From Nitrospirales bacterium (GTDB lineage Bacteria; Nitrospirota; Nitrospiria; Nitrospirales; UBA8639): DNA of 50,697 nucleotides. Of this stretch, positions 282 through 1,066 are shown piece by piece (position 1 is the first letter of the stretch; every line of letters begins with the position of its first letter). Position numbers and translations under genes: made by a program. Below the pieces are notes generated by a model that ran no database searches, was not told the origin of the DNA, and worked only from the letters and a program-made list of their open reading frames with translations. The stretch spans positions 1 to 50,697 of the forward strand of contig BQIV01000035.1 of NCBI GenBank assembly GCA_021604005.1, read 5' to 3'.

Positions 282-311
282 TTGACTTGGGATGGGACGC
301 TCGTCTAGTAT
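282..311 (+). promoter_or_regulatory. Putative sigma-70 promoter of the split tRNA-fMet gene
   Basis: TTGACT (282-287) and TAGTAT (306-311) are spaced by 18 bp and lie directly upstream of the mature tRNA 5' end at 317. The predicted start of transcription falls at about 317-319, so little or no 5' leader would be made. It is a positional call; another promoter further upstream cannot be excluded. Confidence 0.4.
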
Positions 312-350
312 CAGCCTGCGGGGTGGAGCAGTCTGGTAGCTCGTTGGGCT

Positions 351-1005
351 CATTCCGTAGGGTTATCTTGAGTACTAAACTCAAAGGGGACATTGCAAGC
401 AACAAGCTGTTCTTCATGCTCTGAAGCGTGGTTGGGAGGTCCTTAGACCAATCGGAGACCGTTTGCCGTATGATCTGGTCTTTGATGTTGAAGGAACTCT
501 TGTGAAGGTTCAGGTCAAAGCAGCCTGGTTCGATGGAGATCGCGGCAACTATGTTGTTGATAATCGTCGAACGAAGACAAACCGAAGGGTAATGGTTCGA
601 GGACTGTATACCAATTCGGATTTCGATTTTGCGTTGGCCTATGTTCAAGACTTGGACCTATTCTACGTGTTCCCAGTTGAAGTATTCATCAGTTATGCCA
701 GCGAAATTCACCTGGTGGAAACTGACAAGCGTCAACGGAAGCCTCGATCCGCTGAATACCGTGACGCCTGGGATTTAATCCTACATCGGGCTGTACAGAA
801 GGAAACTTTTGTACGAACACCTGTCAAATTCGGGGAAGCCTGTGGCGAGGTAATCCCGAGCCAAGCCCTGATGGTTGATCAACCATCAGAGAAGGTGTAG
901 AGACTTAACGGCAGGCACCCTAACGGCGGTCAAGCCGGTCCGAGGGTGAAGAGAAAGTCCAGACCACAAACTGGTCTCCCAGGCAGCGGAAGCTGTAGTG
1001 GTAAG
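351..1005 (+). ncRNA. Group I self-splicing intron in tRNA-fMet
   Basis: The intron is 655 nt. Visible core elements are P3 (GCCTGT 838-843 pairing with GCAGGC 911-916), a P4/P5-type box (AATCCCGAGCCAAGCC, about 852-867), a perfect 22-nt palindromic hairpin in the P6 position (868-889), and P7 (GACT 902-905 with AGTC about 955-958). P8 is CACCCT 917-922 with AGGGTG 943-948, J8/7 is AAGAGAA, and P9-like hairpins follow, including AGACCA/TGGTCT and CAGC-GGAA-GCTG. These boxes resemble those of cyanobacterial and plastid tRNA introns. A candidate P1 pairs 347-351 with 360-364 and includes U350 opposite G361. The intron ends in G1005. The ORF occupies the segment between P1 and P3. Confidence 0.88.
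368..900 (+). pseudogene. Frameshifted intron-encoded PD-(D/E)XK homing endonuclease
   Basis: The product resembles group I intron-associated PD-(D/E)XK endonucleases such as I-Ssp6803I, which is known from a cyanobacterial tRNA-fMet intron. Residues typical of the fold are visible: PYD in GDRLPYDLVFD, QVK in LVKVQVKAAW, and the conserved NRRTKTNRR and DKRQRKPRSA blocks. Translation from TTG 368 gives MSTKLKGDIA and then ends at a stop at 422. Continuing in the next frame from 397 gives QQAVLHALKRGWEVLRPIGD, so one base is missing near 395-400, where the family has a catalytic Glu. A shortened 145-residue product from TTG 463 remains open but lacks that helix. The last 20 or so codons overlap ribozyme helices P3-P6. 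It is probably inactive. Confidence 0.82.
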
Positions 1006-1066
1006 CATAACCCAAAGGTCGAGGGTTCAAATCCCTCCCCCGCAACCAACTAATTCTGAAATTTAG

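Follow-up and report, generated by a model that had tools for sequence, protein, structure and literature searches.

It is very likely that the only initiator tRNA gene detected in this Nitrospirota genome is interrupted by a splicing group I intron, which was once mobile and the endonuclease gene of which is now frameshifted. The gene lies in the window, i.e. the whole stretch of DNA analysed (positions 1-50697 of contig C35), from a genome of 4.7 Mb in 92 contigs that is rated 100% complete. The kind of intron is already known from Synechocystis, and it turns up in more groups of hosts than the literature consulted describes, in which we found no earlier report from Nitrospirota.

A split initiator tRNA gene

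With introns allowed, ARAGORN locates a tRNA-Met(CAT) interrupted by a 655-nt intron at 317-1048, in agreement with the first-pass annotation, which had proposed that two tRNA halves 655 bp apart join into a complete 77-nt tRNA with anticodon CAT; without the intron option, the program finds no tRNA in the window. The 5' exon (317-350, plus strand, 34 nt) runs to U33 of the initiator tRNA-Met(CAT), as defined by ARAGORN on the unspliced and spliced sequences and by alignment with relatives, and the 3' exon (1006-1048, plus strand, 43 nt) extends from the anticodon CAT to the CCA end, as defined by ARAGORN and a genome search with the spliced sequence. Run on the joined exons, ARAGORN returns a regular 77-nt initiator tRNA with a GGG/CCC anticodon stem. 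Window positions 317 and 1044 give this initiator a U1-A72 pair; congeners have the usual C1xA72 mismatch, and both forms occur among intronless relatives. A promoter-like element, TTGACT-N18-TAGTAT, can be read from the sequence upstream of the gene (282-311, plus strand), and a similar motif also precedes the intronless gene at three loci (L070, L071 and L072).

Intron boundaries and ribozyme core

The proposal of a group I intron in the initiator anticodon loop was borne out by covariance search, with Rfam cmscan identifying Intron_gpI (RF00028) at 777-977 on the plus strand (69.9 bits against a gathering score of 50; E 8.9e-16) as the sole Rfam match in the window. The intron occupies 351-1005 (plus strand, 655 nt), between U33 and C34, an assignment based on RF00028, the boundaries of 47 introns and an empty site in a congener. 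Because CAT stands at both intron ends, the junction is ambiguous by up to 3 nt when the window is considered alone; after the 5' exon, two relatives (L037 and L044) have CGA or TGG instead of CAT, which together with the group I rules fixes the junction at U33|C34. The same relatives rule out the join made initially, in which the intron ended after the anticodon. Comparison of the 47 introns, including that of the window, places the insertion directly 5' of the anticodon; in every one, exon 1 ends with U, the intron ends with G and exon 2 starts with CAT, and a U33.G pair with the guide sequence GGGC(U) is present in 46 of 46 introns. In the window, the internal guide sequence GGGCU (788-792, plus strand) pairs with G30-C34 of the exon-intron junction, with the U33.G wobble at the splice site, and the terminal G is at 1005, as the group I boundary rule demands. 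Of the six P1 pairs that most relatives have, the window lacks an outer one, with C at 787. The insertion site, U33|C34, is that of the parsed cyanobacterial loci.

The ribozyme core (P2-P9; 784-1005, plus strand) is defined by a 17-intron consensus fold, its fold z-score and our model R1. RNAalifold gives a consensus of 60 pairs for the 17 cores, 33 of which show two-sided compensating changes, i.e. the covariation expected of group I core helices; the bases assigned to P7 are nearly invariant and hence uninformative in this respect. The outermost RNAalifold helix, between the guide and the assigned P7 strand, was not taken as real, since the exon is absent from the alignment. The window core has a fold z-score of -4.3 and scores 246 bits with R1, a model built from 17 cores with the window's own included.

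These features are consistent with a route of expression in which a single precursor transcript would cover the whole split gene and the intron would fold as a group I ribozyme, its GGGCU (788-792) pairing with the 5' exon end and holding U33 in the U.G wobble. Exogenous guanosine would then cleave after U33, the freed U33 would attack behind the terminal G (1005), the exons would be ligated and normal tRNA processing would yield the initiator tRNA.

A frameshifted endonuclease gene

The intron contains a homing endonuclease gene of the I-Ssp6803I family (PF11645; 368-900, plus strand), recognised by alignment, PF11645 and PDB 2OST, with a TTG start at 368, a 1-nt deletion near 390-397 and an in-frame remainder at 397-900, the 3' part of which overlaps the ribozyme core. 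The remainder scores 160.2 bits against PF11645 (PDDEXK_5; cut-off 26.1) and matches I-Ssp6803I (2OST) with E 2.4e-61, the homology running from residue 13 to the protein end at ~71% identity. The PD-(D/E)XK endonuclease of cyanobacterial type that had been anticipated is thus present, but its gene is frameshifted here. The deletion follows GACATTGC, and ten aligned relatives are in frame across the N terminus. No intact start-to-stop frame is found in the window: the frame breaks near codon 10, the peptide from TTG 368 stops after 18 residues, and the deletion leaves frame 397-900 without an in-frame start. The deletion falls in the codon that matches position 11, a catalytic glutamate in I-Ssp6803I. 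As judged from its sequence, the window endonuclease is probably inactive.

The reading frame past the frameshift still looks constrained, with comparison of 397-900 with the Nitrospirota locus L032 giving pN 0.08 and pS 0.72, the synonymous sites being near saturation. The scarcity of amino-acid changes downstream points either to a recent break or to an assembly error, and the frameshift could indeed be such an error. An endonuclease still made in active form, owing to a sequencing error at the frameshift or to use of a later start codon, would fit with the frame remaining open for 167 codons after the frameshift and with its few amino-acid changes relative to silent ones, but we consider it rather unlikely: with a start at TTG 463, the first helix would be lost along with position 11, presumably catalytic in I-Ssp6803I, and broken endonuclease genes occur in other relatives too, as degeneration would predict. 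The latter carry frameshifts (L114, L115) or internal deletions (G046, G053, G316, G176, G332), and in the introns of genus g4, another genus of the same family, the endonuclease is absent altogether.

We favor loss of endonuclease activity from a formerly mobile intron. In the mobile state, endonuclease made from the P1 loop would cut an intronless tRNA-fMet gene at the anticodon region, and repair would copy the intron in. Because its endonuclease gene is frameshifted, the window intron is now probably immobile, yet it would still have to splice, as no other initiator tRNA gene was found.

Probable dependence on splicing

A search with a tRNA model reveals 45 tRNAs in the genome. Two other tRNAs have a CAT anticodon, i.e. 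an elongator tRNA-Met (L005) and a tRNA that looks to be of the Ile2 type (L024), as judged from ARAGORN and sequence, and the only good genome matches to the spliced initiator sequence are its own two halves. The count of tRNA-fMet genes in the assembly is therefore one, and the split gene is its sole initiator gene, as the first-pass annotation had suspected. Given that no other initiator gene was found in the assembly, splicing of the window intron is probably essential to the host. G014, a one-contig genome from the same family, likewise has no initiator match besides the split gene, in support of a need for splicing.

An alternative is that the split gene is dead and that an intact initiator gene elsewhere, absent from the assembly, functions in its place. 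We detected neither tRNA-Ala(TGC) nor tRNA-Ile(GAT) among the tRNAs of the genome, so the assembly may lack repeats such as rRNA operons and, with them, a second initiator gene. This alternative is nonetheless very unlikely, considering the single initiator match in an assembly rated complete, the intact exons, identical to those of related genomes, the conservation of the ribozyme core and splice pairing and the same state of the single-contig G014.

Four congeners lack the endonuclease, two of which have an intronless initiator gene. In congener G002, the intronless orthologue is at the same locus, with an upstream flank that is 79% identical. The window exons equal g4 exons at 77 of 77 positions and differ at 2 positions from those of the two intronless congeners, a pattern that would fit co-conversion from a g4-like donor as well as plain inheritance.

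Distribution and phylogeny

A search of 396 Nitrospirota genomes with model R1 recovers the intron in 21 at a score of at least 200 bits, and roughly half of these 21 genomes belong to genus g4 of the same family as the window; the weaker Nitrospirota matches that we examined had tRNA-Asn or tmRNA as hosts, with no fMet introns among them. The hosts found comprise Nitrospirota, Methylomirabilota, Muproteobacteria, Saprospiraceae, Omnitrophota, Doudnabacteria and cyanobacteria, with closely similar introns inserted at an identical position in at least six bacterial groups. All 13 named endonuclease loci are in or beside an intron-bearing tRNA-fMet gene, and the arrangement of intron plus endonuclease recurs in independent genomes of several phyla. 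An assembly chimera was ruled out, since the same architecture is present in about 20 other Nitrospirota genomes as well as in other phyla. The assignment of the host to Nitrospirota held, the sequence of L032 ('Nitrospirae bacterium nzgw276') being present also in G360, a genome of the window genome's order.

A search for carriage on plasmids gave no match, and among deposited phages the only relatives are below 40% identity to the endonuclease. On a viral contig (L105, IMGVR_UViG_3300005936_001382; 2284-2782), a possible carrier, an endonuclease of 57% identity stands free immediately upstream of a tRNA-Met(CAT) that is intact. At L117, an endonuclease fragment lies downstream of an intronless tRNA-fMet, suggestive of intron loss or of a free-standing stage. 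In many cyanobacteria (L038-L040, L106-L110 and L114), the endonuclease is free and located shortly 3' of a tRNA-fMet with an intron too short for it; in others (L111-L113, L115 and L116), it is inside the intron. The tRNA-fMet intron of L035 (2917-3594) is without ~50 nt of the P4-P6 core that is present in relatives, reflecting either a broken intron or an assembly gap.

The trees of intron cores and endonucleases were unequally informative. In the core tree, the window intron joins g4 introns (89/83) within a Nitrospirota clade (93/93) that also contains a Methylomirabilota copy, with the cyanobacterial introns outside; the window core is 87% identical to that of G020, from the same family, and 67-78% identical to those of sampled cyanobacterial introns. 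The endonuclease tree is poorly resolved; the nearest proteins, those of L032 and L033 (Nitrospirota and Methylomirabilota), are 80% identical to the window's, and I-Ssp6803I is 71% identical. The movement between phyla that had been proposed is thus not shown for the window intron, which lies inside the Nitrospirota clade beside introns of its own family, and a cyanobacterial origin is not supported, the nearest intron being in a same-family genome. Although the cyanobacterial members were described first (PMC1995217) and the insertion site and 655-nt length are those of Synechocystis 6803, these core and endonuclease identities and the grouping within the Nitrospirota clade make direct arrival from a cyanobacterium extremely improbable.

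The proposal is supported for a sister pair. L032 (Nitrospirota) and L033 (Methylomirabilota) are 92.4% identical over exactly the 734-bp tRNA gene, with no match elsewhere. Located 9 bp upstream of the L033 tRNA, the gene for RlmN shares 79-87% identity with its counterparts in 11 Methylomirabilota genomes and, over its full length, no more than 55% with those in Nitrospirota. The gene for Fmt, next to the L032 tRNA, shares 64-77% identity with its counterparts in Nitrospirota family f3 and no more than 52% with those in Methylomirabilota. With both flanks typical of their own phylum, misbinning is unlikely to be the cause of the match, and sequence comparison indicates that an intron of this tRNA-fMet family has very probably crossed phyla; this transfer does not show that the copy in the window also crossed. 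The fmt (formyltransferase) gene adjoins tRNA-fMet at several loci of family f3 (L032; G038:C9; G056:C7; G154:C54; G210:C29).

Relationship to known introns

The tRNA-fMet intron of Synechocystis with I-Ssp6803I is reportedly the subject of work by Bonocora and Shub in 2001. In Synechocystis sp. PCC 6803, this intron is 655 nt long and has a 150-aa ORF encoding I-Ssp6803I, a PD-(D/E)XK enzyme (PMC1995217). The window intron is the same in host gene, length and location of the endonuclease inside the intron, and its protein is ~71% identical, but it differs in its Nitrospirota host, its frameshifted endonuclease, the first 10 codons of which are out of frame relative to I-Ssp6803I, and the loss of one P1 pair. 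The site and boundary rules are those of the cyanobacterial loci examined, although the core is only ~67-78% identical to sampled cyanobacterial introns. The endonuclease-free introns of g4 type (275-291 nt; G007, G014, G020 and others) likewise share the site and boundaries, with cores up to 87% identical and exons identical at 77/77 positions, and differ from the window intron in having no endonuclease gene. The tRNAscan-SE 2.0 paper attributes absent fMet or Ile2 predictions in 36 genomes to group I introns, with two cyanobacteria named as cases for fMet (PMC8450103); non-cyanobacterial hosts may already be on record among these 36 genomes. A search of the open-access literature, which does not prove absence, found nothing on group I introns in tRNA genes of Nitrospira or Nitrospirae.

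We think it likely that the initiator anticodon loop, nearly identical in all bacteria, is the target for one homing intron moving across phyla: once inserted into the essential single-copy gene of a host, the intron would lose its endonuclease and persist because its splicing is indispensable, with the Nitrospirota/Methylomirabilota pair representing a recent jump. Endonuclease genes at this one site range from intact through frameshifted and partly deleted to absent, as the homing cycle predicts, and the L032/L033 pair provides a clean match between phyla that stops sharply at either end of the tRNA gene. The results add Nitrospirota and several further groups to the hosts of an intron that is textbook knowledge for cyanobacteria. 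They also imply that translation initiation in these bacteria would depend on a ribozyme, and that their initiator tRNA is overlooked by annotation tools run without an intron option.

Other group I introns were observed in Nitrospirota. Introns of 248-603 nt split tRNA-Asn(GTT) in several families of the phylum (L143-L149 and L151; ARAGORN), and our literature search found no bacterial report of group I introns in tRNA-Asn. Introns in tmRNA have been recorded from 21 phyla (PMC11915505), and the window's own genome has a second group I intron in the T-loop of its tmRNA (L152, G000:C12:4486-5759, minus strand; tmRNA 138.6 bits, R1 match at G000:C12:4986-5259).
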